Source of the DNA: Kineosporia sp. A_224
Lineage (GTDB): Bacteria > Actinomycetota > Actinomycetes > Actinomycetales > Kineosporiaceae
Direction: 5' to 3'
NCBI RefSeq assembly: GCF_002198655.1
Contig: NZ_MWLN01000225.1
Coordinates: forward strand, 10,056 to 43,079
Length of the DNA stretch: 33,024 nt
Shown: one piece after another, positions 2,559 to 30,546 of the stretch
Position numbering within the stretch: position 1 is the stretch's first letter
Layout of the letters: each line of letters opens with the position of its first letter
The notes under the pieces: generated by a model
Seen by the model: only the letters and a program-made list of their open reading frames with translations
Databases searched by the model: none
What the model was told of the DNA's origin: nothing
Program-made: the position numbers and the translations under genes

Positions 2559-2588
2559 GTGAACCTCCTGGTCCGTCCTGCTGCGGCT

Positions 2589-2646
2589 CCGTCGCGCCCG
2601 GTGCGTCACGATCGAGCGCCCGGTGCGTCAGATCGAGCGCCCGGTG
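2589..2646. repeat. Tandem ~21-bp direct repeat over the ligase stop codon
   Basis: GATCGAGCGCCCGGTG occurs at 2610-2625 and again at 2631-2646, and the shorter GCGCCCGGTGCGTCA also occurs at 2594-2608. The right-hand copy encodes the last residues (TGRSI) of the ligase; the other copies lie between its stop codon and the TetR gene. It looks like a small tandem duplication of the gene end. Confidence 0.75.
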
Positions 2647-4217: not shown

Positions 4218-4237
4218 CACGGTCTCCTTCGGTGCGG

Positions 4238-8303: not shown

Positions 8304-8310
8304 CACGCCC

Positions 8311-9909
8311 TCACATCCTGAAGACGCCGTAGCCGCGGGCTCCCGCGACGGGCGCGCTGTGCGCTGCGGACAGGGCGAGCCCGAGGACGGTCCGGGTGTC
8401 CCGCGGGTCGATGACGCCGTCGTCGTAGACCCGCCCGGACAGGAACATCGGGAGCGACTCGGCCTCGACCTGGCGCTCGACGGCGGCCCGCAGGTGGGCG
8501 TCCGCCTCCTCGTCGAACGGCAGCCCGCGGGACTGCGCCGACGCGCGCGCGACGATCGACAGGACCCCCGCGAGCTGGGCCGGCCCCATGACCGCCGAGC
8601 GGGCCGACGGCCAGGTGAAGAGGAATCGGGGGTCGTAGGCCCGCCCGCACATCCCGTAGTGCCCGGCGCCGTACGAGGCGCCCATGAGCACCGAGAGGTG
8701 CGGCACGGTCGAGTTGGAGACGGCGTTGATCATCATCGAGCCGTGCTTGATGATGCCGCCCTGCTCGTAGGCCGCGCCGACCATGTAGCCGGTCGTGTTG
8801 TGGAGGAAGACGAGCGGGGTGTCGGCAGCGTTGGCGAGCTGGATGAACTGCGCCGCCTTCTGCGACTCCTCGCTGAAGAGCACGCCGCGCGCGTTGGCGA
8901 GCACCCCGACCGGGTAGCCGTGGACGCTGGCCCAGCCGGTGACGAGGCTCGTGCCGTAGAGCGGCTTGAACTCGTCGAGGTCCGAGCCGTCGACGACCCG
9001 GGCGACGACCTCGCGGGGGTCGAACGGGGAGCGCAGGTCGCCGGGGACGATCCCGAGCAGGTCGTCCGGGTCGTGGCGGGGCCCCGCGTAGACCGGTGCC
9101 GGGGCCGGGCCGGCCTTGCGGTGGTTGAGCCGGGCGACGATCCGGCGGCCGATCCGGATCGCGTCGTGCTCGTCGTCGGCGAGGTGGTCGGCGAGCCCGG
9201 AGCGGCGGGCGTGCATCTCCGCCCCGCCGAGCGACTCGTCGTCCGACTCCTCGCCCGTGGCCATCTTCACCAGCGGCGGCCCGCCGAGGAACACCTTCGA
9301 CTGCTCGCGGATCATGACGACGTGGTCGCTCATCCCGGGCAGGTAGGCCCCGCCGGCCGTGGAGTTGCCGAAGACGATGGCGATCGTCGGGATCCCGGCC
9401 GCGGACAGCCGCGTGATGTCCCGGAAGATCCGTCCGCCGGGGATGAAGATCTCCTTCTGGGTCGGCAGGTCGGCGCCGCCGGACTCGACGAGGTTGACCA
9501 GCGGCAGCCGGTTCTTCGCGGCGATGTCGAGCGCCCGGTAGGTCTTCGCGGCGGTCCACGGGTTCGTCGTCCCGCCCTTGACCGTGGGGTCGCTCGCGAC
9601 GACGACGCACTCGACGCCCTCGACGACCCCGATCCCGGTGACGACGCTCGCGCCGACCGTGAAGTCGCTGCCCCACGCGGCGAGCGGGGACAGCTCGAGG
9701 AACGGGGAGTCGCGGTCGAGGAGCAGCTCGATGCGTTCGCGCGCCAGGAGCTTGCCGCGGGCCCGGTGCCGGGCGACGGCCTTCTCGCCGCCGCCCGCGA
9801 CGGCCGCCGCGTGCTGCGCCTCGACCTCCGCGAGCCGGGCGAGCATCGTCTCCCGGTTCGCGACGGCGTCCGCCGAGCGCGGGTCGAACGTGCTCCTCAG
9901 AGCGGTCAC
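8311..9909 (-). CDS. Acyl-CoA carboxylase, beta (carboxyltransferase) subunit
   Basis: Transfers the carboxyl group from biotin to an acyl-CoA; 532 residues. Crotonase-type carboxyltransferase motifs include RHRARGKLLARERIELLLD, SDPTVKGGTTNPWT, NLVESGGADLPTQ, GNSTAGGAYLPGMSD, FLGGPPLVKMATGEE and, in the second half, FLHNTTGYMVGAAYEQGG and MGASYGAGHYGMCGRAYDP. These are closest to methylcrotonyl-/geranyl-CoA carboxylase beta chains rather than to PccB/AccD. The loop after LPTQ (KEIFIPGGRIFRD) is about three residues shorter than in methylcrotonyl-CoA carboxylases as I remember them. The GTG at 9909 overlaps the AtuA stop by 4 bases (GTGA), so translation is coupled. Confidence 0.94.
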   Translation of the reverse strand: MTALRSTFDPRSADAVANRETMLARLAEVEAQHAAAVAGGGEKAVARHRARGKLLARERIELLLDRDSPFLELSPLAAWGSDFTVGASVVTGIGVVEGVECVVVASDPTVKGGTTNPWTAAKTYRALDIAAKNRLPLVNLVESGGADLPTQKEIFIPGGRIFRDITRLSAAGIPTIAIVFGNSTAGGAYLPGMSDHVVMIREQSKVFLGGPPLVKMATGEESDDESLGGAEMHARRSGLADHLADDEHDAIRIGRRIVARLNHRKAGPAPAPVYAGPRHDPDDLLGIVPGDLRSPFDPREVVARVVDGSDLDEFKPLYGTSLVTGWASVHGYPVGVLANARGVLFSEESQKAAQFIQLANAADTPLVFLHNTTGYMVGAAYEQGGIIKHGSMMINAVSNSTVPHLSVLMGASYGAGHYGMCGRAYDPRFLFTWPSARSAVMGPAQLAGVLSIVARASAQSRGLPFDEEADAHLRAAVERQVEAESLPMFLSGRVYDDGVIDPRDTRTVLGLALSAAHSAPVAGARGYGVFRM

Positions 9910-11678
9910 AGCAGCGCCTCCGGGATGTCGACGACGCGGGAGCGCAGCCACTCGGCCAGCCCCTTGGCCTGCGGGTCGAAGCGGTGCTGGGCGGCCACCC
10001 CTTCGCCGAGGACCCCCTCGACGACGAAGTTCACCGCCCGCAGGTTCGCGAGCACCGACCGGGTGACCGGCAGGTCGGCGGTCTCGGGCAGCAGGGCCCG
10101 GAACGTCTCGACGGTGAGGCTGCGCTCGAGCCACGGCCAGACGTCGGGCGTCCGGGCCCAGACGCCGACGTTGGCGCTGCCGCCCTTGTCCCCGGAACGG
10201 GCGCCGACGACGGTGCCCAGCGGGGCGCGGCGGGTCGGAGCACCCGGCGCGCAGCCCGCCGGCAGGTCCGGTGCCGGGGCGGCGAGGGCGTCGTCCGGGG
10301 CCGTGGACGCGCTCTCGCGCAACGGGTTCGGCGGGACGACGACCCGGACGCCGTCCGGCAGCACAGCGACCTGCTCGACGTCCGCGGCGTCGACGGCGGC
10401 GGCGGTGAAGACGCCGTACGGGCTCGCGTCCCCGGGCGGGGCGGTGAGGTGGAAGCCCGGGTAGCCGGCCAGGGCCAGCTCGACGGCGGCCGCGGAGAAC
10501 GCCCGGCCGACGACCTTCGGGTCGCCGTCCTTGACGGCGCAGCGCAGGAAGGCGCTCGCCTCCTCCTGGGTCGCGGCGTCCGGGTGGTCGGTGCGGGCGA
10601 GCGTCCACCGGACCTCGCGCGGCGAGCGGGGCAGCGCCGCGAGGGCGTGCTCGAGCTGGGCCCGCGCGAGCGTCGCCTTGGCCTCGACGTCGAGACCCGT
10701 GAGCACGAAGGTCACCTCGTTGCGGAACCCGCCGAGGCCGGCGAGCCCGGCCTTGAGGGTCGCGGGCGGCCGTTCGCCGCGGACGCCCTCGATCCGCACC
10801 CGGTCGGGGCCCTCCTGCACGAGGTGCACGGTGTCGAGCCGGGTCACGACGTCGGGGCCGGGGTAGCGGGGGCCGGCGACCTCGTAGAGCAGCTGGGCCG
10901 TCACGGTTCCGACGGTCACCGCACCGCCGGTGCCGGGGTGCTTCGTGACGACGCTGCTGCCGTCGGCGTGCACCTCGACGAGCGGGAAGCCGGGGCGGGT
11001 GAGGTCGGTGCCCGCGGCGAGCAGGTCGGCGAAGAGCGCGTAGTTGCCGCCGGTCGCCTGGGCGCCGCACTCGACGACGTGCCCGGCGACGACGGCGCCG
11101 GCCAGCGCGTCGAGGCAGGCCGGGTCGTCCGCGCGCCAGCCGAAGTGCGCCGCGGCCGGCCCGACGACGAGCGAGGCGTCGGTGACCCGGCCGGTGACGA
11201 CGACGTCGGCCCCGGCGTCCAGGCAGGCCGCGATGCCCCAGCCGCCGAGGTAGGCGTTGGCGGCCACCGGCTGCGCACCGTGCCGGCCCACCGCGTCGAG
11301 GCCGAGGGCGGCCGCGCGGGGCAGGAGGTCGTCGCCCTCGACGTGGGCGACGCGCACGTCGAGCCCGAGCCGGTCCGCGAGCGCCCGGACGGCGTCCGCG
11401 AGGCCGGCGGGGTTGACGCCGCCCGCGTTGGTGACGATCTTCACGCCTCGGTCGAGCGCCGTCCCGAGCGTGCCCTCGAGCTGGCGCAGGAACGTCTTCG
11501 CATACCCGGTCGCCGGGTCCTTCGCACGGTCCCGACCGAGGATGAGCATGGTCAGCTCGGCGAGGTAGTCGCCGGTGAGGACGTCGAGGTCGCCGCCGGA
11601 GAGCATCTCGGCCACCGCGGAGAACCGGTCGCCGTAGAAGCCGGACGCGTTGCCGATCCGCAGCGGGGGCCGGGTCAC
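9906..11678 (-). CDS. AtuA-family protein (DUF1446), acyclic terpene utilisation-like
   Basis: Protein of 590 residues with the two-part AtuA architecture. Residues ~1-450 are the DUF1446 domain, with RIGNASGFYGDRFSA, GGDLDVLTGDYLAELTM, KIVTNAGGVNPAGLADAV, VVVTGRVTDASLVVGPA and VECGAQATGGNY. Residues ~480-590 are the small C-terminal AtuA-like domain with ARSGDKGGSANVGVWAR. AtuA is required for citronellol/geraniol degradation in Pseudomonas but its reaction is not established to my knowledge; acyl-CoA hydrolase or lyase roles have been proposed. Here it is coupled by GTGA overlaps both to the DinB-type gene before it and to the carboxylase after it, which ties it to the carboxylated intermediate. 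It might supply the missing C-C cleavage or CoA-removal step. Confidence 0.92.
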   Translation of the reverse strand: MTRPPLRIGNASGFYGDRFSAVAEMLSGGDLDVLTGDYLAELTMLILGRDRAKDPATGYAKTFLRQLEGTLGTALDRGVKIVTNAGGVNPAGLADAVRALADRLGLDVRVAHVEGDDLLPRAAALGLDAVGRHGAQPVAANAYLGGWGIAACLDAGADVVVTGRVTDASLVVGPAAAHFGWRADDPACLDALAGAVVAGHVVECGAQATGGNYALFADLLAAGTDLTRPGFPLVEVHADGSSVVTKHPGTGGAVTVGTVTAQLLYEVAGPRYPGPDVVTRLDTVHLVQEGPDRVRIEGVRGERPPATLKAGLAGLGGFRNEVTFVLTGLDVEAKATLARAQLEHALAALPRSPREVRWTLARTDHPDAATQEEASAFLRCAVKDGDPKVVGRAFSAAAVELALAGYPGFHLTAPPGDASPYGVFTAAAVDAADVEQVAVLPDGVRVVVPPNPLRESASTAPDDALAAPAPDLPAGCAPGAPTRRAPLGTVVGARSGDKGGSANVGVWARTPDVWPWLERSLTVETFRALLPETADLPVTRSVLANLRAVNFVVEGVLGEGVAAQHRFDPQAKGLAEWLRSRVVDIPEALL

Positions 11679-12487
11679 GCCCGCTCCCCCGCCGGCCGCC
11701 CGGCCCCCGGAGGGCCGGCGAACGCCTGCGCGACGTCGAGCCAGGCGTCGGCGTCCGGGCCGGTCGCGACGAGCGCGGTGTCCGCGCGGTGCCGGCGCCG
11801 GGCGGCGAGCAGGCACAGGTCGAGCGCCGGCCCGGTGACGTGCTGCGCGGCGTCCGGCGGGCCGAACACCCACGTGCCCCCGTCCGGTGCGGTGAGCTCG
11901 ACCCGGATCTCGTCGGCGGGGGGCGGGCGACCGTGCACGGCGAAGGAGAAGCCCGTCGTCCGGACGGCGAGGCGCGCCACGTGCCGCAGCCGCGCCGTCG
12001 GCACCCGGGTGACCCCGAGCGCGTCGGCGACGTCCTGGCCGTGCGCCCAGGTCTCCATGAGGCGGGCCGTCGCCATCGAGGTCGCCGCCATCGGCGGCCC
12101 GAACCAGGGCAGCTTCGTGCCGTCGGGCACGGCCCGCAGCGCGGCGTCGAGGGCTGCACGGGCGCTGCGCCAGCGGGTGAGCAGCGCACCGCCGGACGCT
12201 GCCGCGCCGGTCTCGGCCTCGCGGTCGACGACGTGCTCGGGCGCCTCGCCGGAGGCGAGCAGCGCCTGCACCGCCGCGAGGAACGCGGCCGGGTCGGTCG
12301 CGGCGAGCGCGGCGATCTCGTCGGTCCAGGCGAGGTGGGCGATCTGGTGGGCGACGGTCCAGCCGGGGGCGGGGGTGGCCGACCGCCAGGTCGCGGCGCC
12401 GTCCGTCGGCCCGTCGGGGAGGTCCGCGACGAGCGCGTCGAGGTCGGCACACTCCGCGCGCAGGTCGGTGAGCACCTCGTCGAGCAT
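11675..12487 (-). CDS. TIGR03084-type DinB/MDMPI-fold metal-binding protein
   Basis: First gene of the catabolic operon, 270 residues. It has the mycothiol-maleylpyruvate-isomerase-like N-terminal fold: a helical segment with PGWTVAHQIAHLAWTDE (two His) and a later METWAHGQDVADALG (Glu and His), which supply the usual metal-binding triad. The C-terminal ~90 residues contain GFSFAVHGRPPP and end in a Pro/Gly-rich tail. Proteins of this family accompany AtuA genes in actinobacteria; no reaction is known to me. A mycothiol-dependent or hydrolytic role is possible but unproven. The start is the ATG at 12487, with AGGAGG seven bases upstream. It shares the 189-base divergent promoter region with the luciferase-like gene. 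Confidence 0.85.
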   Translation of the reverse strand: MLDEVLTDLRAECADLDALVADLPDGPTDGAATWRSATPAPGWTVAHQIAHLAWTDEIAALAATDPAAFLAAVQALLASGEAPEHVVDREAETGAAASGGALLTRWRSARAALDAALRAVPDGTKLPWFGPPMAATSMATARLMETWAHGQDVADALGVTRVPTARLRHVARLAVRTTGFSFAVHGRPPPADEIRVELTAPDGGTWVFGPPDAAQHVTGPALDLCLLAARRRHRADTALVATGPDADAWLDVAQAFAGPPGAGRPAGERA

Positions 12488-12553
12488 CGCTGCACCTCCT
12501 GCGCCGCGGCGCCGTCGCCGCCCCAGGAGGGTGACACGGGCCCTCGCGACAAA

Positions 12554-12649
12554 TCAAGCACGTCTGCTTTGTTCTGCACAGCCGTGCAGCCGTGGGTGCC
12601 TGCATGCGGGCGCCCCGACACCCGTCTGCATCCACCCATCGCTGCACGG
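12554..12649. promoter_or_regulatory. Nested inverted repeats in a divergent promoter region
   Basis: Three inverted repeats lie between the two divergent genes: AAGCA-CGTC-TGCTT at 12556-12569, CTGCAC-AGCC-GTGCAG at 12574-12589, and an imperfect pair of about 29 bases at 12582-12610 and 12621-12649 (CCGTGCAG... facing ...GCTGCACGG). The CTGCAC/GTGCAG half-site is used more than once. This layout suits dimeric repressor binding, perhaps by the TetR encoded at the other end of the operon. Confidence 0.5.
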
Positions 12650-12664
12650 GTGCGGCCGACCCGA

Positions 12665-12670
12665 GACACT
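12665..12670 (+). promoter_or_regulatory. Candidate -10 hexamer for leaderless start of the LLM gene
   Basis: GACACT stands six bases before the ATG at 12677, and no Shine-Dalgarno sequence is visible. An NANNNT hexamer five to seven bases before the start codon is the usual sign of leaderless transcription in actinobacteria. Confidence 0.4.
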
Positions 12671-12676
12671 GGCGCC

Positions 12677-14257
12677 ATGCCCGACTACGGCCACGACCTG
12701 ATCTTCGGCACCTTCATCACCCCGGAGGCCGCCGCGGCCGAGCGGGTCGTCGCCCTCGCCCGGCTCACGGACGCCGTCGGTCTCGACCTCGTGACGGTGC
12801 AGGACCACCCGTACCAGCCGACGTTCCTCGAGACCTGGACCCTGCTGTCGGTCATCGCGGCGTCGACCCAGTCGGTGCGCGTCGTCCCCAACGTCGCGAA
12901 CCTGCCGCTGCGCCCGCCCGCCGTCCTCGCCCGGGCCGCGGCGAGCCTGGACCTGCTGAGCAACGGCCGGGTCGAGCTGGGCCTGGGCACGGGCGCCTTC
13001 TGGGACGCCATCGCCGCGAACGGCGGCCCCCGCCGCACGCCCGGCGAGGCCGTCGGGGCGCTCGAGGAGGGGATCGCCGTCATCCGCGGACTGTGGGCGG
13101 ACGGCGGCGCGGTCCGGGTGGACGGCGAGCACTACTCGGTCGTCGGGGCCAAGGCCGGCCCGGCGCCGGCGCACCCGATCGGGATCTGGCTCGGCGCGTA
13201 CAAGCCGCGGATGCTCGCGGTGACCGGACGGCTCGCCGACGGCTGGTGGCCGAGCCTCGGCTACGCCGCTCCCGACACGCTCGCAGCGATGAACGCCCGC
13301 ATCGACGAGGCGGCGGAGGCGGCCGGCCGCGGGGCCCAGGACGTCCGGCGGCTCTACAACGTGCACGGCCGGTTCACGGTGCAGGGCAACGGGTTCCTCT
13401 CCGGGCCGGCCGAGCAGTGGGCGGAGGAGCTCGCCGACCTCACGCTCACGCAGGGGATGAGCGGCTTCGTCCTCGGCAGCGACGACGCCGACGACATCCA
13501 GCGGTTCGCCGCCGAGGTGGTGCCCGCCGTCCGCGAGATCGTCGCCGCCGAGCGCACCAGGGCGCAGCAGCCGGCCACCACCGGGCCGGTCGACCTCGGC
13601 GGGCCGGTGGAACCGGCCCACGTCGACGTCGCCACCGGCGCCCCGGTCTGGCCCGCCGGGCTCGCGGTCACCCCGACCCCGGACGACGGGACCCGGCGCA
13701 GCGCCGTCCGGCCCTGGGACGAGGCGACCCGGCCCGTCGTCGCGCCGCCCGACCCGGCCCGCCCCTACACCGCCCACGAGCAGGCCGCCGGGCAGCACCT
13801 CGTCGACGTCCACGACCACCTGCGCAGCGAGCTGCGCCAGGTGCAGGGCCTCGTCGAGCAGGTCGCCGCCGGCACCCTGGACGCCGGCACCGCCCGGTCG
13901 CACATCAACGCGATGACCATGCGGCAGAACAGCTGGACGGTCGGCGCCTACTGCGCGTCGTACTGCCGTGTCGTCACGGTCCACCACACGCTCGAGGACG
14001 AGAGCGTCTTCCCGCACCTGCGCCGCGCCGAGCCCCGCCTCACGCCCGTGCTCGACCGGCTCGCCGAGGAGCACCTCGCGATCCACGGCGTCCTCGAACG
14101 GGTCGACCAGGCCCTCGTCGCCTTCGTCGCGCCGGGCAGCGCGGGCACGGCGCCTCTCCGGGAGGCCGTAGACCTGCTCTCGGACACCCTGCTGAGCCAC
14201 CTCTCGTACGAGGAGCACCAGCTCGTGGAACCGTTGGCCCGCCACGGCTTCTACTGA
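12677..14257 (+). CDS. Luciferase-like flavin monooxygenase fused to a hemerythrin domain
   Basis: Protein of 526 residues with two domains. Residues ~1-300 are a luciferase-like (LLM) flavin/F420-dependent oxidoreductase, with LIFGTFITPE, DLVTVQDHPYQPTFLETW, LASLDLLS-type NGRVELGLGTGAFWDA and a PIGIWLGAYKPRML strand. A Pro/Asp-rich linker (~300-365) leads to a hemerythrin HHE four-helix domain (~370-526) with HLVDVHDHLRSEL, VVTVHHTLEDESVFPHL, EEHLAIHGVLE and LSHLSYEEHQLVEPL; these supply the expected di-iron His/Glu/Asp ligands. The pairing suggests oxygen delivery to, or redox sensing by, the flavin site (inference). It is transcribed away from the terpene-like operon from a shared control region and may act in the same pathway. 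The stop codon faces the beta-glucosidase stop 20 bases away. Confidence 0.93.
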   Translation: MPDYGHDLIFGTFITPEAAAAERVVALARLTDAVGLDLVTVQDHPYQPTFLETWTLLSVIAASTQSVRVVPNVANLPLRPPAVLARAAASLDLLSNGRVELGLGTGAFWDAIAANGGPRRTPGEAVGALEEGIAVIRGLWADGGAVRVDGEHYSVVGAKAGPAPAHPIGIWLGAYKPRMLAVTGRLADGWWPSLGYAAPDTLAAMNARIDEAAEAAGRGAQDVRRLYNVHGRFTVQGNGFLSGPAEQWAEELADLTLTQGMSGFVLGSDDADDIQRFAAEVVPAVREIVAAERTRAQQPATTGPVDLGGPVEPAHVDVATGAPVWPAGLAVTPTPDDGTRRSAVRPWDEATRPVVAPPDPARPYTAHEQAAGQHLVDVHDHLRSELRQVQGLVEQVAAGTLDAGTARSHINAMTMRQNSWTVGAYCASYCRVVTVHHTLEDESVFPHLRRAEPRLTPVLDRLAEEHLAIHGVLERVDQALVAFVAPGSAGTAPLREAVDLLSDTLLSHLSYEEHQLVEPLARHGFY

Positions 14258-15920: not shown

Positions 15921-18900
15921 GTGGTCGACGTGACCGGAGCGGACGACCCGTTCCTGCGAGGGGCCCTCGCCCCGCCGGAGCGCACCCTCGTCGACGTCTT
16001 CCGCGAGACCGTCGCCCGGCACCCGGGCGCTCCCGCGATGGACGACGGCACGTCGGTGCTCACGTACGCGGGCCTGGCCGCCGCGGTCCGGGCGACCGCC
16101 GACGGGCTGCGCGCGGCCGGCATCTCGCGCGGCGACCGGGTCGGCGTCCGGATGCCGTCGGGCACCCACGCGCTCTACACCTCGATCCTCGCGGTCCTGT
16201 CCGCCGGCGCCGCCTACGTCCCCGTCGACCTCGACGACCCCGACGAGCGGGCCCACCTCGTCTTCCGCGAGGCGGACGTCGCCGCGGTGCTCACCGCGGA
16301 CGAGGGCCTCGTCGTCCGCCGGCGCAAGGCCCGGACGGCACGGCCCGCGGCAGGTTCGGAGCCCGAGGGCGCTGCCACCGACCCCACGCCGGACGACGAC
16401 GCGTGGATCATCTTCACCTCCGGGTCGACGGGCACCCCGAAGGGCGTCGCCGTGACGCACCGCAACGCCGCGGCCTTCGTCGACGCCGAGGCCCGGATGT
16501 TCCTCCAGGACCGCCCGCTCGGCCCCGGCGACCGGGTGCTCGCGGGGCTGTCCGTCGCCTTCGACGCCTCGTGCGAGGAGATGTGGCTCGCCTGGCGGTA
16601 CGGCGCGTGCCTCGTCCCGGCGCCGCGCGCCCTCGTCCGCAGCGGCATGGACCTCGGCCCGTGGCTCGTCAAGCAGCGGGTCAGCGTCGTCTCGACGGTG
16701 CCGACGCTCGCGTCGCTGTGGCCGGCGGAGGCGCTGGACGCCGTCCGGCTGCTCATCTTCGGCGGCGAGGCCTGCCCGCCGGACCTCGCCGCCCGGGTCG
16801 TCGTCCCCGGCCGCGAGGTGTGGAACACCTACGGCCCCACCGAGGCGACCGTCGTCGCGTGCGGAGCCACCCTCGACGGCACCGGCCCGGTCCGGATCGG
16901 CCTGCCGCTCGACGGCTGGGACCTTGCGGTCGTCGACAAGGACGGCGCCCGCGTCGCCGAGGGCGAGGTCGGCGAGCTGGTCATCGGCGGCGTGGGCCTG
17001 GCGCGCTACCTCGACCCGGCGAAGGACGCCGAGAAGTACGCGCCGATGCCGACGCTCGGCTGGGACCGCGCCTACCGCAGCGGCGACCTCGTGACCCTCG
17101 ACCGGGCCGGGCTGCTCTTCCAGGGCCGCGCCGACGACCAGGTCAAGCTCGGCGGCCGGCGGATCGAGCTCGGCGAGGTGGACGCGGCCCTCCAGGCGCT
17201 GCCCGGCGTCGCCGGGGCGGCCGCCGCCGTCCGGAAGACCGCCGCCGGCAACCAGATCCTCGTCGGGTACGTCGCGCTCGCGACCGACGAGCCCGCCGGG
17301 GCGGGGAACGGGGCCGGGGACGGCGCGGACGTCGGGACCGAACCCGGGACGGACGGCGCGGCACCCGGTTTCGACGTCGCCGCCGCGACCGCCCGGCTGC
17401 GTGAGAGCCTGCCCGCCGCGCTCGTCCCGCGGCTCGCCGTCGTCGGCACGATCCCGACCCGCACGTCGGGCAAGGTCGACCGGGACGCCCTGCCGTGGCC
17501 GCTCGAGGGCATGACGTCGGAGCCTGCGGTGGCGTCCCACCTCACCGGTACCGCGGCCTGGGAGGCCGAGCAGTGGGCCCGGATCCTCGGCGCGAGCATC
17601 GCCGGCCTCGACGACGACTTCTTCGCCCACGGCGGCGGCAGCCTCGCCGCGGCCCAGCTCGTCTCGGTGCTGCGGACCCGGTACCCCGAGGTCACGGTCG
17701 CCGACGTCTACGAGAACCCGCGGCTCGGTACGCTCGCCGACACCCTCGAGGAGTTCACCCCGTCGGTGAGCTCGACGGACCGCGTCGTCAAGCCGGTCCG
17801 GTGGCAGATGCGCGTCGCACAGACCGTGCTCGGGGTGCCGCTCGCGGCCGTGACCGGGCTGCGCTGGCTGCTGTGGCTCGCCGTCGCCGTGAACCTCCTC
17901 GTGGAACTCGACCTCTGGCGCCCGGACGACGGGACACGGGCCCTGATCTTCACGGCTCCCGGATGGGCGCAGCACGTCTCCTGGTGGTGGGTCGCCCTCG
18001 GTTGGCTCGTCCTCGTCTCCCCGCCCGGCCGGTTCCTCCTCGCCGGCGCCATGGCCCGGGTCGTCACCCGCGGCGTCCGGCCCGGCAACTACCCGCGCGG
18101 CGGCCGGGTGCACCTGCGGATCTGGTTCGCCGAGGCCTGGGCGTCGGCGGTCGGCGCCGACGGGCTGCTCTGCGCGCCGTGGGTCGTGCACTACGCGCGG
18201 CTGCTCGGGGCGTCCGTCGCCAAGGACGTCGACCTGCACGCCCTGCCGCCCGTCACCGGCCTGCTGACCCTCGGGAAGGGCTGCTCGGTCGAGCCCGAGG
18301 TGGACCTGTCCGGGCACTGGGTCGACGGCGACGTGCTCGTCGTGGGCCGGGTCCGGGTCGGGGCCGGCGCGTCGGTCGGCGCCCGGAGCACGCTCGGCCC
18401 GGGTGCCCGGCTCGGCCAGGGCGCCCAGCTCGCCCCGGGCTCGGCGGTGCTCGGCTCCGTGCCGCCCGGCGAGCGCTGGGCCGGCTCCCCGGCCGAGTTC
18501 GACGGCCCGGCGCGGCACGACGCCCCGACCGGGCGGCCGCCGCGCGGGCTGCGCTGGGTGCCCGTCTTCGGGCTCGGAGCGGCCGCGTTCGCCGGGCTGC
18601 CGCTGCTCGCCGCGGGTGCCGGGCTGCTCGTGCTCGCGCCGCGGCTCGACCCTGTGCTCATGTCCGGTGCGGAGGCCGCCCGCACGGTGCTGCTCTGGTC
18701 CCCGCTCGCCGGCCTCGCCGCCTTCACGACGTACGCCGTCGTCGTCGCGGTCGCCGTCCGGCTGCTGTCGGTCCGCCTGACGACCGGCCACCACGCCGTC
18801 CGCAGCCGGGTCGGCTGGCAGGCCTGGGGCGTCGAGCGGCTCATGGACGAGGCCCGCACCTGGCTGTTCCCGCTGTACGCCGGGCTGTTCACCCCGGTCT

Positions 18901-20036
18901 GGCTCCGGATCCTCGGCGCGAAGGTCGGCCGCGGGGTCGAGGCCTCGACGGTCGTCATGCTGCCGAGCCTCACGTCGGTCGGCGAGCACGCCTTCCTCGC
19001 GGACGACACGATGGTCGGCTCCTACGAGCTCTCCGGCGGATGGATGCGGATCGCCCGCGCCAAGGTCGGCAAGCGGGCCTTCCTCGGCAACTCCGGGATG
19101 ACGGCGCCCGGCCGCAAGGTGCCCAAGGACTCGCTCGTCGCGGTGCTCTCCGCAGCGCCCAAGCGGGCCAAGCGGGGCACGTCGTGGGTCGGCAGCCCGC
19201 CGGTGCAGATGCGCCGCGCCGCGCAGGAGACCGACACGAGCCGCACCTATGCGCCGGCGACCCGGCTCAAGGTGGCCCGCGGCACCGTGGAGGCGCTGCG
19301 GATCGTGCCGACGCTGGCCTCGGTGACGCTCGCGGCGGGCGTGCTCGTCGTGCTCCAGGCCGCCGTCGTCACCTGGGGCTGGTGGGCCGCCGCGCTGCTC
19401 GCCGGCCCGGTGCTGCTCGCCGCGGCCGTCGCCGCCGCGGTCGTGACGTCGCTCGCGAAGTGGCTTCTCGTGGGCCGGATCCGGGCCGTCGAGTACCCGC
19501 TGTGGAGCTCGTTCGTCTGGCGCAACGAGCTCGCCGACACCTTCACCGAGATGCTCGCGGCGCCGTTCTTCCTGCGCTCGGCCGCGGGCACCCCGGCGAT
19601 GGTCTGGTGGCTGCGCTCGATGGGCTCGCGGATCGGTCGCGGCGTCTGGTGCGAGTCGTACTGGCTGCCCGAGGCCGACCTCGTGACGCTCGGGGACGGC
19701 GCGACCGTCAACCGCGGGTGCGTCGTCCAGACCCACCTCTTCCACGACCGGATCCTCTCGATGGACCACGTGACCCTCGAGCCCGGCGCCACCCTGGGGC
19801 CGCACGGCGTCGTCCTGCCCGCGGCGACGATCGGCACGTCGTCGACCGTCGGACCCGCCTCGCTCGTCCTGCGCGGCGAGGAGGTGCCCGCCCAGACCCG
19901 GTGGCGCGGCAACCCGATCGTCTTCTGGCCGGACGACGCCCCGCGGGCCACCGGGCCCGCCGTCCGGGTCGAGGAGCCGACCCCCGGGCCGACCCCCGGG
20001 CCGACCGCCGGGGCGGCCCCGGCCGCGGGCGCATAG
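15921..20036 (+). CDS. Pls/PosA-family membrane NRPS (A-T plus beta-helix domains)
   Basis: Single-module peptide synthetase of 1371 residues, relative of epsilon-poly-L-lysine synthetase. It starts at the GTG at 15921 after GGAGG. Adenylation domain ~20-520: FTSGSTGTPKGVAVTHRN, FDASCEEMWLAWRYGA, NTYGPTEAT, YRSGDLV, GRADDQVKLGGRRIELGE and TSGKVDRDALP. Thiolation domain ~535-610 with FFAHGGGSLAAAQ (phosphopantetheine Ser574). Then hydrophobic segments near 630-665, 688-715, 878-910, 922-950 and 1129-1185 alternate with three left-handed beta-helix (hexapeptide-repeat) regions near 750-850, 990-1090 and 1235-1335, as in the Pls C-terminal region. There is no thioesterase or classical condensation domain. 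It should activate one amino acid and join it repeatedly or to an acceptor at the membrane. The C-terminus is a PTPG repeat. The amino acid cannot be read with confidence. Confidence 0.92.
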   Translation: MVDVTGADDPFLRGALAPPERTLVDVFRETVARHPGAPAMDDGTSVLTYAGLAAAVRATADGLRAAGISRGDRVGVRMPSGTHALYTSILAVLSAGAAYVPVDLDDPDERAHLVFREADVAAVLTADEGLVVRRRKARTARPAAGSEPEGAATDPTPDDDAWIIFTSGSTGTPKGVAVTHRNAAAFVDAEARMFLQDRPLGPGDRVLAGLSVAFDASCEEMWLAWRYGACLVPAPRALVRSGMDLGPWLVKQRVSVVSTVPTLASLWPAEALDAVRLLIFGGEACPPDLAARVVVPGREVWNTYGPTEATVVACGATLDGTGPVRIGLPLDGWDLAVVDKDGARVAEGEVGELVIGGVGLARYLDPAKDAEKYAPMPTLGWDRAYRSGDLVTLDRAGLLFQGRADDQVKLGGRRIELGEVDAALQALPGVAGAAAAVRKTAAGNQILVGYVALATDEPAGAGNGAGDGADVGTEPGTDGAAPGFDVAAATARLRESLPAALVPRLAVVGTIPTRTSGKVDRDALPWPLEGMTSEPAVASHLTGTAAWEAEQWARILGASIAGLDDDFFAHGGGSLAAAQLVSVLRTRYPEVTVADVYENPRLGTLADTLEEFTPSVSSTDRVVKPVRWQMRVAQTVLGVPLAAVTGLRWLLWLAVAVNLLVELDLWRPDDGTRALIFTAPGWAQHVSWWWVALGWLVLVSPPGRFLLAGAMARVVTRGVRPGNYPRGGRVHLRIWFAEAWASAVGADGLLCAPWVVHYARLLGASVAKDVDLHALPPVTGLLTLGKGCSVEPEVDLSGHWVDGDVLVVGRVRVGAGASVGARSTLGPGARLGQGAQLAPGSAVLGSVPPGERWAGSPAEFDGPARHDAPTGRPPRGLRWVPVFGLGAAAFAGLPLLAAGAGLLVLAPRLDPVLMSGAEAARTVLLWSPLAGLAAFTTYAVVVAVAVRLLSVRLTTGHHAVRSRVGWQAWGVERLMDEARTWLFPLYAGLFTPVWLRILGAKVGRGVEASTVVMLPSLTSVGEHAFLADDTMVGSYELSGGWMRIARAKVGKRAFLGNSGMTAPGRKVPKDSLVAVLSAAPKRAKRGTSWVGSPPVQMRRAAQETDTSRTYAPATRLKVARGTVEALRIVPTLASVTLAAGVLVVLQAAVVTWGWWAAALLAGPVLLAAAVAAAVVTSLAKWLLVGRIRAVEYPLWSSFVWRNELADTFTEMLAAPFFLRSAAGTPAMVWWLRSMGSRIGRGVWCESYWLPEADLVTLGDGATVNRGCVVQTHLFHDRILSMDHVTLEPGATLGPHGVVLPAATIGTSSTVGPASLVLRGEEVPAQTRWRGNPIVFWPDDAPRATGPAVRVEEPTPGPTPGPTAGAAPAAGA

Positions 20037-20039
20037 GGT
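20034..20039 (+). promoter_or_regulatory. Candidate -10 hexamer built on the NRPS stop codon
   Basis: TAGGGT begins with the TAG stop codon of the NRPS gene and ends five bases before the GTG at 20045. No Shine-Dalgarno sequence precedes the peptidase start, so a leaderless transcript may begin at or next to the start codon. Confidence 0.45.
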
Positions 20040-20044
20040 CGCCC

Positions 20045-21394
20045 GTGATGACGAACCGACGATCGACGGGTCGCGCGCCCGCCGAGGGCTCCGCCGGGGA
20101 CCCCTATCGCCCCAAGAGCGGCGACGACGCCTACCGGGTGCTCCGGTACGACATCGACCTCGATTACCGGGTCGCGAGCAACCGGCTCGACGCGACGGTG
20201 GCGCTCTCCGTGCTGACCCGGCGCGCGACGTCCCGCCTGCACGTCGACCTCGCCGGCCTGCGGGTCGTCAAGGTGCTCGTCGACGGCCGGCCGGCCCGGT
20301 ACGCGCACCGCGGCCGCAAGCTCGTCGTCACGCTGCCGAGGCAGGCACCGGCCGACACCGCCCTGACCCTGTCCGTGCGGTACAGCGGCTCCCCGGCACC
20401 GCTCGACGGGCCCTGGGGCGAGGTCGGCTGGGAGGAGCTGAGCGACGGCGTCATCGTCGCGAGCCAGCCGGACGGCGCGCCGTCCTGGCTGGCCTGCAAC
20501 GACCACCCGGGCGACAAGGCGAGCTACCGCTTCACCGTGACGACGGAGTCGCTCTACACGGTCGTGTGCAACGGCTCGCTCGTCGACCGGCGCGCCGGCG
20601 CCAGCCGGACGACCTGGGTCTACGAGTCGCCGGAGCCGATGGCGACCTACCTCGCGACGGTGCAGGTCGGCCGGTACCGGCTCGTCGACACCGCGATGGG
20701 GCCGGTCCGGCAGCGCGCCGCGGTGCCGCCCCGGCTGCTCGCGGCGTTCGACCACGACTTCGCGCCGCAGGCCGCCATGGTGCGGCTGTTCGAGCGGGTC
20801 TTCGGCCCGTACCCGTTCGAGGCGTACACCGTTGTCGTCACCGACGAGGCGCTCGAGATCCCGCTCGAGGCGCAGGGTCTGTCGATCTTCGGCGCCAACC
20901 ACGTCGACGGCCGGCGCGGCAGCGAGCGGCTCGTCGCCCACGAGCTCGCGCACCAGTGGTTCGGCAACAGCCTCACGCTCGGGCGCTGGCAGGACATCTG
21001 GCTCCACGAGGGCTTCGCGGCGTACGCCGAGTGGCTGTGGTCCCAGGAGAAGGGTCGCGAGACCGCGGACGCCCTGGCCCGCAAGGCCTGGCAGCGGCTG
21101 TCCGGGCTCCCGCAGGACCTCGTCATCGCCGACCCGGGCCCGGACCTCATGTTCGACGACCGGCTCTACAAGCGCGGGGCGCTCGCCGTGCACGCGCTGC
21201 GGCTGACGATGGGCGACGCGGCGTTCGGCCCGATGCTCCGGGCCTGGACGACCGAGCACCGGCACGGCACGGTGACGACCGCCGGCTTCGAGGCGCACGC
21301 GCAGGCCTGGACCCCGGAGCCGCTCGGCGCGCTGTTCACCGCGTGGCTGCGGTCCCCGAAGCTGCCCCGGCTGCCGGCCCCGCCCACCGGCTGA
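20045..21394 (+). CDS. M1-family zinc metallopeptidase
   Basis: Aminopeptidase-like protein of about 449 residues (GTG 20045; ATG 20048 is the next in-frame start). Zinc ligands are in VAHELAHQWFGNS (His298, His302, numbered from the ATG) and WLHEGFAAYAEW (Glu321), with catalytic Glu299. In place of the exopeptidase GxMEN motif it has LEIPLEAQGLSIFG, as in other short actinobacterial M1 proteins. The N-terminal ~200 residues are the beta-rich M1 domain; the long C-terminal helical domain of classical aminopeptidase N is missing. No signal peptide is seen. It starts 8 bases after the NRPS stop and its last 59 bases overlap the converging phosphopantetheinyl transferase gene. It may process the NRPS product or provide self-protection, but this is only inference. 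Confidence 0.92.
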   Translation: MMTNRRSTGRAPAEGSAGDPYRPKSGDDAYRVLRYDIDLDYRVASNRLDATVALSVLTRRATSRLHVDLAGLRVVKVLVDGRPARYAHRGRKLVVTLPRQAPADTALTLSVRYSGSPAPLDGPWGEVGWEELSDGVIVASQPDGAPSWLACNDHPGDKASYRFTVTTESLYTVVCNGSLVDRRAGASRTTWVYESPEPMATYLATVQVGRYRLVDTAMGPVRQRAAVPPRLLAAFDHDFAPQAAMVRLFERVFGPYPFEAYTVVVTDEALEIPLEAQGLSIFGANHVDGRRGSERLVAHELAHQWFGNSLTLGRWQDIWLHEGFAAYAEWLWSQEKGRETADALARKAWQRLSGLPQDLVIADPGPDLMFDDRLYKRGALAVHALRLTMGDAAFGPMLRAWTTEHRHGTVTTAGFEAHAQAWTPEPLGALFTAWLRSPKLPRLPAPPTG

Positions 21395-21983
21395 CGACCG
21401 CGACCGCGGCGGCGTACCCGGTCGGCGCCTCGAGGTCCAGCAGATGCACGGCCGCCGGGTCGGGCAGCGGCAGGTAGGCAGCGACGGTCACGCGCAGCGG
21501 GTGGCGCGGCCAGTCGACGAGCACCGGCGCGGCGTCCGGTGCGGAGACGACGACGGACGACGGCTCGACGAGCAGCCCGACCCCGGCCGCCTTGAGGACG
21601 GCCTCCTTGCGGACCCAGGTCCGGGCCCGGCCGGCGGGGCTCGCGGCGGCCGGGCCGGATCGTTCGCCCGGGTGCAGGGCGACGACCGGGAAGCCGGGGA
21701 ACGCCGTCCCGGCGAGTGCCTCGACGTCGATGCCGACCGGACCGTCGACGCTCACCACGGCAGCGCCGACGCCGCCCGCCGTCGCGACGCTCACGTGGAC
21801 GTCCGGGGCGTCCAGGAGCACCGGCCTGCCGTGCGGGCCGCCGCACGCCGGGCACGGGTCGCGGCCCAGCCGGACGGCGTCCGGTGTCGTCCCGAGCCGC
21901 GGGGCGGCGAGGGCACGCAGCAGCGCGTGGACGTCGTCCGTGCCCGTGACGACGACGTCGAGACCGGCACGGATCCCGGCCAC
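21336..21983 (-). CDS. 4'-phosphopantetheinyl transferase (Sfp-type)
   Basis: Transfers phosphopantetheine from CoA to a carrier-protein serine; 215 residues. It carries the Sfp family sequence DPCPACGGPHGRP, then SVATAGG, the Mg-binding GPVGIDVEAL and the second core motif ARTWVRKEAVLKAAGVG (W-x-x-KEA-x-x-K). The natural partner is the NRPS carrier domain (Ser574) encoded at 15921-20036; this is inference from adjacency. The start is taken as the GTG at 21983, four bases after the preceding dehydrogenase stop with only a weak ribosome site, so translation may be coupled. The 3' end overlaps the metallopeptidase gene by 59 bases, tail to tail. Confidence 0.9.
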   Translation of the reverse strand: MAGIRAGLDVVVTGTDDVHALLRALAAPRLGTTPDAVRLGRDPCPACGGPHGRPVLLDAPDVHVSVATAGGVGAAVVSVDGPVGIDVEALAGTAFPGFPVVALHPGERSGPAAASPAGRARTWVRKEAVLKAAGVGLLVEPSSVVVSAPDAAPVLVDWPRHPLRVTVAAYLPLPDPAAVHLLDLEAPTGYAAAVAVVSRWAGPAAGAASGTAATR

Positions 21984-23334: not shown

Positions 23335-24186
23335 TCAGGCGGGCAGCGGCTCCGCCGGCGGCAGCTCGGCGAGGCTGTCCCGCTGCGAGAGGGCGACGAC
23401 CCCCGCGATGGCGACGCCGAACGCGGCGACCGCCGCGACCCCCCAGCCGGCGTCGACGCTGTCGCCGAGCCACACGACGCCGACGACGGCCGGCACGGCG
23501 GTCTGGGTGACGATGAGGGCGGACGTCGTCGCGAGCACCCCGGCGCGCTGGAGCGCCGTCGAGTAGAGCAGGAACGCGGTGACACCCGCGATGACGAGGG
23601 CGTACGTCGCGGGGTCGGTCACGAGGGTGCCGACGGACAGGTCCGGCACGACCCGGCCGGCGAGCGCGACGACCGCGTAGCCGCAGCCGGAGAGCAGGCT
23701 GAGACCGACGGCGGCCCACTCGGTGTGGATCCGCCCGACGACCTGGCCGAGGACGACGACCAGACCGGCGGCGAGGAGCAGCAGCGCCCGCTCGCCGGTC
23801 GTCGTCGTCACCGTGCCGTGCGACTCGGCGGCGACGGCGAGCACGAACAGGCCGGAGCAGACCGCGACCACGGCGACCTGCTCGACGCGGCCGAAGGGCG
23901 CGCCCACGGTGCGGGCGGCGAGCACGGCGGTCACGGCGACCGACGACGAGATCACCGCCTGGGCGAGGAAGAGCGGGGCCGTGCGCAGGGCGACGAGGTG
24001 CAGGACGAAGCCGCCGAGGTAGAGCACGACCGCGCCGATGTAGACCGGGTGCCGCAGCAGCCGGACGAGCAGCCGGAAGTCGACGCCCGCCGTGGTCTGC
24101 TCCCGGCGCGCCGAGACGGCCTGGAGGAGCGCGCCGACGCCGAACGCGAGGGCGGCCGCGAGGGCGCAGAGCAGTCCGAGAGCCAC
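23335..24186 (-). CDS. DMT/EamA-like membrane transporter
   Basis: Integral membrane protein of 283 residues with 9-10 hydrophobic segments: for example residues 1-22, 48-68, 73-92, 104-121, 131-150, 156-176, 194-212 and 217-260. Two halves of similar layout suggest the EamA duplication of the drug/metabolite transporter superfamily, in the group sometimes annotated as NIPA-like or DMT family. Substrate cannot be inferred. It starts at the GTG at 24186 with no clear Shine-Dalgarno, but with TAACCT five bases before it on the gene strand. The gap of 152 bases to the 74-residue gene holds no gene. Confidence 0.83.
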   Translation of the reverse strand: MALGLLCALAAALAFGVGALLQAVSARREQTTAGVDFRLLVRLLRHPVYIGAVVLYLGGFVLHLVALRTAPLFLAQAVISSSVAVTAVLAARTVGAPFGRVEQVAVVAVCSGLFVLAVAAESHGTVTTTTGERALLLLAAGLVVVLGQVVGRIHTEWAAVGLSLLSGCGYAVVALAGRVVPDLSVGTLVTDPATYALVIAGVTAFLLYSTALQRAGVLATTSALIVTQTAVPAVVGVVWLGDSVDAGWGVAAVAAFGVAIAGVVALSQRDSLAELPPAEPLPA

Positions 24187-24259: not shown

Positions 24260-25045
24260 TCAGTGTTCCCCGGCGGCCGCGGGTGCCATCGGGGTGACCC
24301 CGAGAGCGGCCGTACGGCGACGGGTCACCGTCAGGTGCAGGCTCATGGCGAGGTAGTACACGAGGTACGCCAACGAGGCCCCGACGACGATCGGGTTCGG
24401 GTTCGGCATCTGCGTGAGGAGGACGGCGTAGAGCACGAGCCAGCCCGCGGTGAACGCGAGGTTGGTGCGCCGGAAGGCCGCCGTCCGCGACGGGTAGATG
24501 TAGCAGATCGGCACGAAGACGAGCGCGCTGCAGACGAGCAGGATCGCCGTCACCGTGGCCGGGCTGAGGTCGGCGATGATCACGTAGAACGCGACCACGT
24601 TCCAGTAGCTCGGGAAGCCCAGGAAGAAGTGGTCGTCGGTCTTCGCGTCGACCCGGCAGAACTGGTAGCTCGAGGCGAGGAGCGGGATCGTCGCCAGCGC
24701 CGTGCCGAATGCCCCCTCGGGCAGGTAGCCGCCGCTCCAGAGCAGGAGCATCGGCGCGAACGCGTAGGTCAGGTAGTCGACGATGTCGTCGAGCCGGGCG
24801 CCGTCGAACCACGGGATGCGCTCCTTGACGCGCATCCGGCGGGCGAGCATGCCGTCGGTGCCGTCGACGATGAGCGTCACGAGACCGAGCCACAGCGCGG
24901 TGATCGCGTCCCCGGCGAAGGCGGCGAGCACGATGAGCAGGGCGAGGGCGCTCCCGCTCGCGGTGTACAGGTGCACGGCACCTGCTCCGGCACGCGCCCA
25001 GTTCCCGTCGTGCAGGAATCCCGCCTTGAGGTCGGGCGTGGCCAC
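24260..25045 (-). CDS. CDP-alcohol phosphotransferase, phosphatidylcholine synthase-like
   Basis: Membrane protein of 261 residues. The start is the GTG at 25045 (AAGGAG four bases upstream, MATPDLKAGF). It contains a CDP-alcohol phosphotransferase signature in modified form: DGTDGMLARRMRVKER followed by FDGARLDDIVDYLTY, with the Asp ligands for the metal ions. The DG-DG--AR--VKE--P--G--LD--VDY pattern is the one of bacterial phosphatidylcholine synthase (Pcs), which joins CDP-diacylglycerol and choline. Several hydrophobic segments precede and follow. Pcs is rare in actinobacteria, so the acceptor alcohol may be different. An in-frame ATG at 25231 would add 62 unrelated Arg-rich residues and is rejected. 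Confidence 0.82.
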   Translation of the reverse strand: MATPDLKAGFLHDGNWARAGAGAVHLYTASGSALALLIVLAAFAGDAITALWLGLVTLIVDGTDGMLARRMRVKERIPWFDGARLDDIVDYLTYAFAPMLLLWSGGYLPEGAFGTALATIPLLASSYQFCRVDAKTDDHFFLGFPSYWNVVAFYVIIADLSPATVTAILLVCSALVFVPICYIYPSRTAAFRRTNLAFTAGWLVLYAVLLTQMPNPNPIVVGASLAYLVYYLAMSLHLTVTRRRTAALGVTPMAPAAAGEH

Positions 25046-25352
25046 GGCACTCCTTCGGCTGGTGCGCCCTCGCGCTGTCCGGGCGGCACTCTCGACTATG
25101 TCGGGCGGCAGTCTGGCCGGGCGCATCCGGCGCGCCCGCTGCTGCAGGCGTGAGGAGCACGATATCTCGCCCAGCCACCGGACAGATGCCTCGTCGTTAC
25201 CCGCCTGTGCCGTTATGTCCAGAATTTTCATGATCTCCGAAGTGCGAGCGGCGTAAGAGTCGTGTAACGCGATGCCCTCCGCGGGCCACCGAGACTGGCG
25301 AAGGGGTCAGCGGTGACCCGCCGCGACGACGCGATCACCAGGAGGCCGCACC
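25046..25352. other. Divergent intergenic region, comparatively A+T-rich
   Basis: About 307 bases between the CDP-alcohol transferase and DM13 genes. It includes one of the few A+T-richer stretches of the window (25196-25280, with CCAGAATTTTCATGATC). A GCGT...ACGC pair encloses AAGAGTCGTGTA near 25250-25269. It should carry the promoters of both genes; no certain -35/-10 pair or operator is recognised. Confidence 0.45.
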
Positions 25353-29465: not shown

Positions 29466-30503
29466 TCAGCGCGGCAGCAGCCGCGTCGTCGGCGGGCCCG
29501 GCGCGGGCAACGCAGCAACGGGGTGGGACACGGGCGCGAACCTGCCGGACGACGGGCCGGGTGTCCGGCCGGCCTCCCAGTCAGCCCGCGCCGAGGCGAT
29601 GTCGTCGTGGTCGCGGCCGACGAAGTTCCACCACATGACGAGCCGCTCGCCGAACGGTGCCCCACCGAGCAGGAAGACCCGCGCGGGGCCGTCGGCCTCG
29701 AGCGGCACGACGTCGCGCCCCGGCGGCAGGTGGAGCAGCGCGCCGCGCGGCACGGTGACGCCGTCGACCCGCACGTCGCCCTCGACGGGGAGGAGACCGT
29801 GCTCGAACGACGGGTCGAGCGGTACGCGGGTGGCCGCCGGCGCCGCGCCGGAGTCCCGGCGGAGCACGAGGTCGACGCCGACGATCGGCGAGTACGTCGC
29901 GGCCGGCGAGCGGACGGCGTCCGCGGCGTCCCCGCGGCCGAGCGCCCCCAGGACGACGGTCGCCGTCGCCCCCGGCAGGTCCACGGTCGGCAGCCCGGCG
30001 TGGTGCTCGAAGTGCGGCTCCTGGTGGCGGTCACCGTCGGGCAACGCGACCCACAGCTGGAGGCCGTGCATCGTCGTCCGGTCCACCCCGGCGCCGTCCG
30101 GGTCGCCCGCGTCGGCCGGTCCGTCGAGCACCGAGTCCTCCGCGTGCGCGATCCCCCGGCCCGCCGTCATGAGGTTGAGCTCGCCGGGGCGGACGACCTG
30201 CTCCGACCCGAGCCCGTCGCGGTGGAGCACCTCGCCCGAGTAGAGCCACGTCACCGTCTGCAGCCCGATGTGCGGGTGCGGCGGCACGTGCATGCCGGTC
30301 TCGGCGACCGGCGCCGGGCCGAAGTGGTCGACGAAGCACCAGGCACCGATCGTCCGGATCTGCTTGTGCGGCAACGTCCGCCGCACGAGGAGCGCCCGCG
30401 GGCCGCCGAGCGGCACCTCGCGCGGCTCGAGCAGGCTCGTCCCCGGGCCGTCCGGGGCGGGTGCGCCGTCCGTGCCGACGACGTCGGGGTCGAGCCTGCT
30501 CAT
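29466..30503 (-). CDS. Pirin family protein (first type, 345 residues)
   Basis: Bicupin protein. The N-terminal cupin has the pirin metal site: PHPHIGLQTVTWLYSGEV (His ligands) and ELNLMTAGRGIAHAED (His and Glu). Before it stands LLVRRTLPHKQIRTIGAWCF and after it HGLQLWVALPDG, both typical of pirins. The C-terminal cupin ends in WWNFVGRDHDDIASARADWE. Pirins are iron proteins with quercetinase or redox-sensor activity in characterised cases; the role here is unknown. ATG at 30503 follows GGAGG by four bases. The gap to the second pirin gene is 43 bases, so the two are probably one transcript. Confidence 0.95.
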   Translation of the reverse strand: MSRLDPDVVGTDGAPAPDGPGTSLLEPREVPLGGPRALLVRRTLPHKQIRTIGAWCFVDHFGPAPVAETGMHVPPHPHIGLQTVTWLYSGEVLHRDGLGSEQVVRPGELNLMTAGRGIAHAEDSVLDGPADAGDPDGAGVDRTTMHGLQLWVALPDGDRHQEPHFEHHAGLPTVDLPGATATVVLGALGRGDAADAVRSPAATYSPIVGVDLVLRRDSGAAPAATRVPLDPSFEHGLLPVEGDVRVDGVTVPRGALLHLPPGRDVVPLEADGPARVFLLGGAPFGERLVMWWNFVGRDHDDIASARADWEAGRTPGPSSGRFAPVSHPVAALPAPGPPTTRLLPR

Positions 30504-30546
30504 GCGGTCCTCCGGCGGGTCGGTCCTGGCGGCGGCTGCCGCCGGG

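Follow-up and report, generated by a model that had tools for sequence, protein, structure and literature searches.

The 33,024-nucleotide stretch of Kineosporia sp. A_224 analyzed here, referred to as the window (positions 10056–43079 of contig NZ_MWLN01000225.1; G+C content 75%; genome of 7.2 Mb in 242 contigs), carries a locus which, judged from its sequence, is very probably pls-pldII, already known as the epsilon-poly-L-lysine system, here accompanied by a convergent gene for a 4'-phosphopantetheinyl transferase (PPTase). The locus adds an example to this known system and does not represent a new polymer pathway. The three genes named in the original prediction, spanning positions 15921–21983, were confirmed by the open reading frame coordinates: a synthetase gene, an M1 metallopeptidase gene starting 11 nt after the synthetase stop codon, and on the opposite strand the PPTase gene, which overlaps the M1 gene by 59 nt (Table 1). 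The domain scores and the recurrence of the neighbors beside orthologues are far beyond chance.

Residues 632–1333 of the synthetase matched TIGR02353, the NCBIfam model "Pls/PosA family non-ribosomal peptide synthetase", with 705.8 bits against a cut-off of 423.1. One AMP-binding domain (residues 27–362, 225.4 bits, cut-off 29.9) and a single PP-binding carrier domain (37.7 bits, cut-off 20.8) were recognized by Pfam, and no Condensation or thioesterase match was obtained in the Pfam scan (E up to 0.1), in agreement with the Pls/PosA-type homopolymer synthetase proposed earlier. A profile search found no Condensation domain anywhere in the 242 contigs of the genome; five carrier matches were found in it, one of those outside pls sitting in a long frame that resembles a polyketide synthase by its letters alone.

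The nearest relative among solved sequences was the epsilon-poly-L-lysine synthase (Pls) of Streptomyces albulus (PDB 7wew; 604.7 bits over residues 12–529), 67% identical over the adenylation domain. With the ten GrsA pocket positions mapped onto this domain, the pocket read DAESIGTVVK and coincided with that of 7wew at all ten positions. The same code was present in 131 of 133 full-length relatives (the window itself, 53 from the same order and 79 named), the two deviating pockets being DAESIGTIIK (locus L042) and DAESIGTVIK (L161). PMC10522769 gives the pocket of PosA as DMEHNGTVSK and that of the poly-beta-lysine type as DGESISVVNK, and describes a Phe at pocket position 2 in synthetases acting on diaminopropionate (Dap) or diaminobutyrate (Dab), an Ala at this position being tied to lysine. 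The window synthetase matched neither the PosA-subtype pocket, with its Met at position 2, nor the poly-beta-lysine pocket, nor the Phe that marks the Dap and Dab polymer synthetases. From the pocket identical to that of S. albulus Pls, the predicted substrate is L-lysine.

In a tree of 53 hand-picked rows, built in a quick search mode, the window and its two genus mates fell inside a 50-row side with Pls-type pockets, together with Streptomyces, Kitasatospora and others, and three Phe-pocket rows, one of them a very long branch, were set apart. A new polymer was rejected on the identity of the pocket code and on this placement among the Pls-pocket rows. It is very unlikely that a Pls-family synthetase makes another cationic polymer here (poly-ornithine, poly-beta-lysine, poly-Dab, poly-Dap or an unreported one): the family makes several polymers and its pockets can be degenerate, but the published pockets for other polymers differ from the one found, and, of the four synthetases compared, Pls alone has been reported to have a peptidase as operon partner. 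The original prediction had regarded the product as unknown and had suggested either a cationic polymer of a new kind or an envelope component modified by aminoacylation, a view which finds no support in a lysine-type pocket that is unlike the other published ones.

Several relatives departed from the common pattern. L042 (genome G065, from the family of the window) and L161 (Kocuria polaris), the two loci with slightly altered pockets, formed a well-supported branch of their own; L161 had no M1 neighbor, and none was present within the 1.6 kb of flank available for L042. Three loci of the same order (L090, L091 and L092) had Phe at pocket position 2, with the pockets DFEALSVVTK and DFEYNGTVTK, and beside them no M1 gene reached a pldII-like score; near L091 and L092 the matches were weak, at 34 and 31 bits. 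Genome G155 contained a split variant in which a TIGR02353 polymerase half is combined with three tandem carriers and lacks an adenylation domain. It was present in two copies, one of which sits directly before a separate protein with one adenylation and one carrier domain (L097:264-3437 and 3377-6058; L096:8972-12127); the same genome also has an ordinary pls (L053). The split variant may represent a polymer synthetase divided between two proteins and unusual in its carrier number.

TIGR02353 exceeded its cut-off in 58 of the 198 genomes of the order of the window, its own included. Gene neighborhoods were compared in 59 regions from this order and in 80 named loci, the best 80 of at least 577 relatives. 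From the order set, six regions that fell short of full length were left out (L066, with a split frame and both neighbors present, L090, L091, L092, L096 and L097), as were two with less than 2.5 kb of room, leaving 51; from the named set, one locus was not full length and seven were short of room, leaving 72. The order set takes in the genus mates of the window (L039 and L040), and the rows are not independent. In 50 of the 51 order loci and 64 of the 72 named loci, the gene next downstream of pls, in the same orientation, encoded an M1 peptidase, so that the peptidase belongs with the synthetase, as had been predicted. A convergent PPTase gene lay behind the M1/pls genes in 25 of the 51 and 7 of the 72 loci, and in five more (L041, L075, L078, L081 and L160) a PPTase gene was found farther away or flanking pls on the opposite side. 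The conservation of the neighboring genes beside orthologues, on which the original prediction was staked, was observed for the M1 gene; for the PPTase gene it was observed in about half of the order loci, but not outside the order.

The single order locus lacking an adjacent M1 gene was L041, where it lay 3.5 kb from pls; the eight named ones were L107, L108, L110 and L141 (Kitasatospora or Kitasatospora-named), L104, L131 and L172 (Streptomyces) and L161 (Kocuria). L129, also a Kitasatospora pls locus, had no adjacent M1 gene in 2.4 kb of flank. Kitasatospora aureofaciens CPD02 carried two pls copies, on two contigs.

The M1 peptidase of the window passed both Pfam M1 models, and the HExxH-18-E zinc site was retained in all 119 pls-adjacent M1 proteins examined, that of the window included. 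It was 42% identical over 439 columns to the pls-adjacent M1 protein of Streptomyces sp. MspMP-M5 (L098), whose adenylation domain is 93% identical to that of S. albulus. At L098 the M1 gene and pls overlap by 4 bp (GTGA), the arrangement reported for S. albulus pls-pldII in PMC4361855. Under a mechanical choice of the first start codon, 93 of the 119 M1 genes overlapped or touched pls, 61 of them by exactly 4 nt; in the window there is no overlap, the first possible GTG lying 8 nt and the ATG 11 nt from the synthetase gene. According to PMC9223678, pldII is translationally coupled to pls and encodes the major degrading enzyme, located outside the membrane. By position and sequence, the M1 protein of the window is the counterpart of PldII. 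The role suggested for it in the original prediction, the maturation or degradation of the product, survives as membership of a pair that had already been published.

Some observations weigh against this assignment of the locus. An adjacent M1 gene was missing in 1 of the 51 order loci and 8 of the 72 named loci with room, and the PPTase linkage, by the same criterion, in 26 and 65, respectively. Inactivation of both Pld and PldII in S. albulus altered neither production nor chain length (PMC8506220), and the peptidase is therefore dispensable for synthesis. Moreover, hydropathy and sequence revealed no hydrophobic N-terminal stretch or export signal in the M1 protein of the window, whereas PldII is described as located outside the membrane, so that its place of action may differ. 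Tat-like N-termini were present in nine of the 119 pls-adjacent M1 proteins, judged by eye from 13 regular-expression matches, all nine from Streptomyces (L098, L099, L101, L102, L103, L105, L106, L116 and L153).

That the enzyme puts single lysines or short oligolysine on an envelope component, with the M1 protein an ordinary aminopeptidase adjacent by chance, is scarcely probable. Left-handed beta-helix (LbH) domains like those of the synthetase are acyltransferases of sugars and lipids, and the sequence rules out no lysine-modified target. Nevertheless, the architecture is that of biochemically proven polymer synthetases, the M1 adjacency in 114 of the 123 loci with room is not due to chance, and, the PPTase aside, no other tested window gene is conserved beside pls.

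The PPTase matched PF01648 with 35.7 bits (cut-off 25). In an alignment of 27 rows, G64, D66, E68, W103, E107 and K111 were invariant and K106 and A108 nearly so, which correspond to the G-D-E and W..KEA..K motifs of Sfp-type PPTases. A profile built from 27 pls-adjacent PPTases matched 57 of the 58 synthetase genomes (the exception being G065) against 39 of the 140 without a synthetase, figures which lean towards synthetase genomes, the profile being trained on pls neighbors, with some weak matches and kinship uncorrected. The genome of the window had three PF01648 matches; this profile gave a single match in it besides the pls-adjacent PPTase. The PPTase probably activates the synthetase, and the activator role proposed in the original prediction is plausible in view of the conserved neighborhood and the genome counts. 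A rather unlikely view, compatible with the same assignment of the other two genes, is that the PPTase serves the genome as a general Sfp-type enzyme and stands beside pls by accident. This view would fit the 26 order loci without linkage, the profile matches in genomes without a synthetase, and the other carriers of this genome, including that in the polyketide-synthase-like frame; against it stand the near-constant profile match in synthetase genomes, the same convergent position in 25 order and 7 named loci, and the weaker score of the other genomic match to the profile (45.3 bits versus 139.6 for the pls-adjacent gene).

The C-terminal half of the synthetase was modeled with AlphaFold2 (residues 540–1340) from an alignment of the window with 50 named loci, out of 68 that were usable. 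In the model (pLDDT 90.1, pTM 0.91) the long helices form three pairs, and after every pair comes a left-handed beta-helix (C1 to C3); it bears out the membrane segments and three beta-helix regions of the original prediction. By hydropathy alone the second and third membrane pairs were visible and the first partly so, and Pfam Hexapep exceeded its cut-off for one beta-helix of the three (residues 811–843). A sequence search of solved structures found no close one for this half, giving weak hexapeptide matches only, and a VIA-align listing consisted mostly of carrier domains and hence said little on the beta-helices. The best solved matches in Foldseek were trimeric LbH acyltransferases (E 3e-5 to 2e-4), the 50 matches listed including serine acetyltransferase, maltose acetyltransferase, GlmU and LpxD-ACP.

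Thirty-seven residues showed a conservation of 98.5% or more across 128 full-length rows and were also present in each of three divergent ones, among them Ser574, His731, Trp735, Asp1028, Glu1203, Arg1232, Gln1270, His1272 and Asp1276. The motif QTHLFHDR in C3 was invariant in all 51 aligned rows, and its TH..FH.R aligned with TH..FHHR of Staphylococcus aureus galactoside acetyltransferase (E about 0.001). In the LacA family the His of TH..FHHR is the catalytic base. By the model strands, the equivalent position in C1 is residue 799, where the window and 45% of rows have His, and in C2 it is Tyr1035/Glu1036, kept in 86% and 96% of rows; because of these frequencies, neither C1 nor C2 keeps a conserved His.

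A single site in C3 has points against it as well. The three divergent relatives carry Glu in place of the second His of the motif (His1275), and the C1 of the window itself has His799 where the His of the C3 motif would fall. The alignment to galactoside acetyltransferase is weak, stronger C3 matches (carbonic-anhydrase-like, E 8e-5) do not significantly cover the motif, and C1 likewise matches LbH proteins (best E 5e-5). Query-normalized TM-scores to the LbH enzymes among the 50 matches were 0.08–0.15, low because the model runs to 801 residues and each match covers a single beta-helix.

The 2023 PosA paper (PMC10522769) states that structural information on the C-terminal half was lacking, and leaves bond formation in the absence of a condensation domain open. 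Beyond it, the literature search found no cryo-EM study, tandem-domain mutants or beta-helix/acyltransferase work. The less familiar points of the locus are the recurrent PPTase linkage and QTHLFHDR in the third beta-helix as a candidate polymerization site; neither the linkage nor the view of the C-terminal half as having one active site was met in the literature searched, which left most subscription papers outside, and neither is claimed to be unpublished.

In the scheme that we infer, the PPTase would put phosphopantetheine on the carrier residue Ser574, and the adenylation domain, by its pocket, would activate L-lysine and load it as a thioester. The membrane-embedded C-terminal half would then link lysyl units via the epsilon-amine without an ordinary condensation domain. 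In the original Pls work, lysine on the carrier reportedly acts as donor to the free chain, which accepts it. The bond would most likely be made at a single LbH-acyltransferase-type site, QTHLFHDR of C3, with His1272 as general base, C1 and C2 being degenerate copies with a structural role; this single-site step is the least certain of the scheme. Finally, the M1 peptidase may hydrolyze the polymer or short products and so protect the producer, as has been reported, or at least postulated, for PldII of S. albulus. Taken as a whole, a three-gene module in this actinomycete order, made up of the synthetase, the degrading peptidase and a PPTase dedicated to the synthetase, with a pseudo-trimeric LbH polymerase in which C3 is the sole catalytic copy, iterative chain growth and intracellular clearance of the polymer by the peptidase, is proposed tentatively, as a possibility held with considerable reserve. 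If true, chain growth would be an iterative acyl transfer from a fused carrier to the epsilon-amine of a free chain at one site.

Table 1. Features of the probable pls locus and of the transporter gene in the window.
Feature	Position	Strand	Basis or remark
Pls-type epsilon-poly-L-lysine synthetase (very probable), 1371 aa, A-T-[TM pair-beta-helix]x3	15921..20036	+	GTG start
Adenylation domain (A), res 12-529	15954..17507	+	pocket D-A-E-S-I-G-T-V-V-K = S. albulus Pls (7wew)
Carrier (thiolation) domain (T), res 550-609; conserved Ser574	17568..17747	+	Pfam, conservation
First membrane (TM) helix pair, res 628-662, 688-715	17802..18065	+	model; hydropathy in part
Beta-helix 1 (C1), approx. res 770-863	18228..18509	+	Pfam, model, alignment
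Second membrane helix pair, res 879-908, 916-950	18555..18770	+	model, hydropathy
Beta-helix 2 (C2), approx. res 1005-1097	18933..19211	+	model, alignment
Third membrane helix pair, res 1128-1152, 1154-1183	19302..19469	+	model, hydropathy
Beta-helix 3 (C3), approx. res 1240-1335	19638..19925	+	model, alignment
QTHLFHDR, res 1270-1277, candidate polymerization active site (His1272)	19728..19751	+	conservation, alignment
PldII-like M1 metallopeptidase, 448 aa	20048..21394	+	HExxH-18-E at about 20939-21010
Sfp-type PPTase	21336..21983	-	convergent to M1 gene
DMT-type transporter gene	23335..24186	-	37.7 bits, below curated cut-off 50

The other window genes were searched for in the 139 fetched loci (E up to 1e-8), most of which extend just 7 to 10 kb from the pls match. 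The DMT-type transporter, which the original prediction had linked to the locus, was matched in three of them, L039 (own genus), L126 and L146; it was accordingly dropped as a part of the system. The shikimate dehydrogenase gene and the phosphatidylcholine-synthase-like gene (24260-25231, minus strand, below all curated cut-offs) were matched in L039 only, and a GH1 gene in L039 and L040 only, both from the genus of the window. A response regulator, from a very common family, stood beside pls in 4 of the 59 order and 11 of the 80 named loci. AMP-ligase matches occurred in 32 order and 41 named loci and were taken for the synthetases' own domains. Apart from the response regulator, these other window genes recurred beside pls outside the genus in at most two or three loci. 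Further away, on the minus strand, genes for a TetR regulator, an AMP-dependent ligase, an acyl-CoA dehydrogenase, a biotin carboxylase and a carboxyltransferase (1923-12678) look like a cluster for the degradation of branched-chain or similar acyl-CoA; a 1455-residue frame among them (8311-12678) has its domain confined to the last third. An adjacent pair of pirin-family genes was found at 29466-31338, also on the minus strand.

Epsilon-poly-lysine is a natural compound sold as a food preservative, and producers outside Streptomyces are useful. The locus strikes one supposed unknown product off the list, the invariant C3 motif makes the question of bond formation testable by the change of one residue, and the recurrent PPTase beside pls is a candidate partner in heterologous expression.

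Among known systems, S. albulus Pls shares with the window synthetase the A-T-(TM pair-beta-helix)x3 arrangement, the pocket and an M1 gene that follows immediately in the same orientation. The window differs in the sequence of its adenylation domain (67% identity, as given above) and of the whole protein (55% identity with that of Streptomyces sp. MspMP-M5), in that its pls and M1 genes do not overlap, against the 4-bp overlap, and in its convergent PPTase gene, which L098 does not show. PldII resembles the M1 protein in the zinc motif and in its place behind pls, the 42% identity being to the L098 copy and not to S. albulus PldII itself; in the window protein no export signal was seen at the N-terminus. 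PosA, the delta-poly-L-ornithine synthetase of Acinetobacter baumannii, belongs to the same family and, as described in PMC10522769, has a like predicted C-terminal fold, but differs in its pocket and in its single-gene operon. The LbH (hexapeptide) acyltransferases share the beta-helix fold and, in galactoside acetyltransferase, the TH..FH.R of C3. LpxD acylates an amine from a carrier-bound acyl group. These acyltransferases are homotrimers, whereas the window synthetase is one membrane protein whose three beta-helices are unequal and to which the donor carrier is fused.

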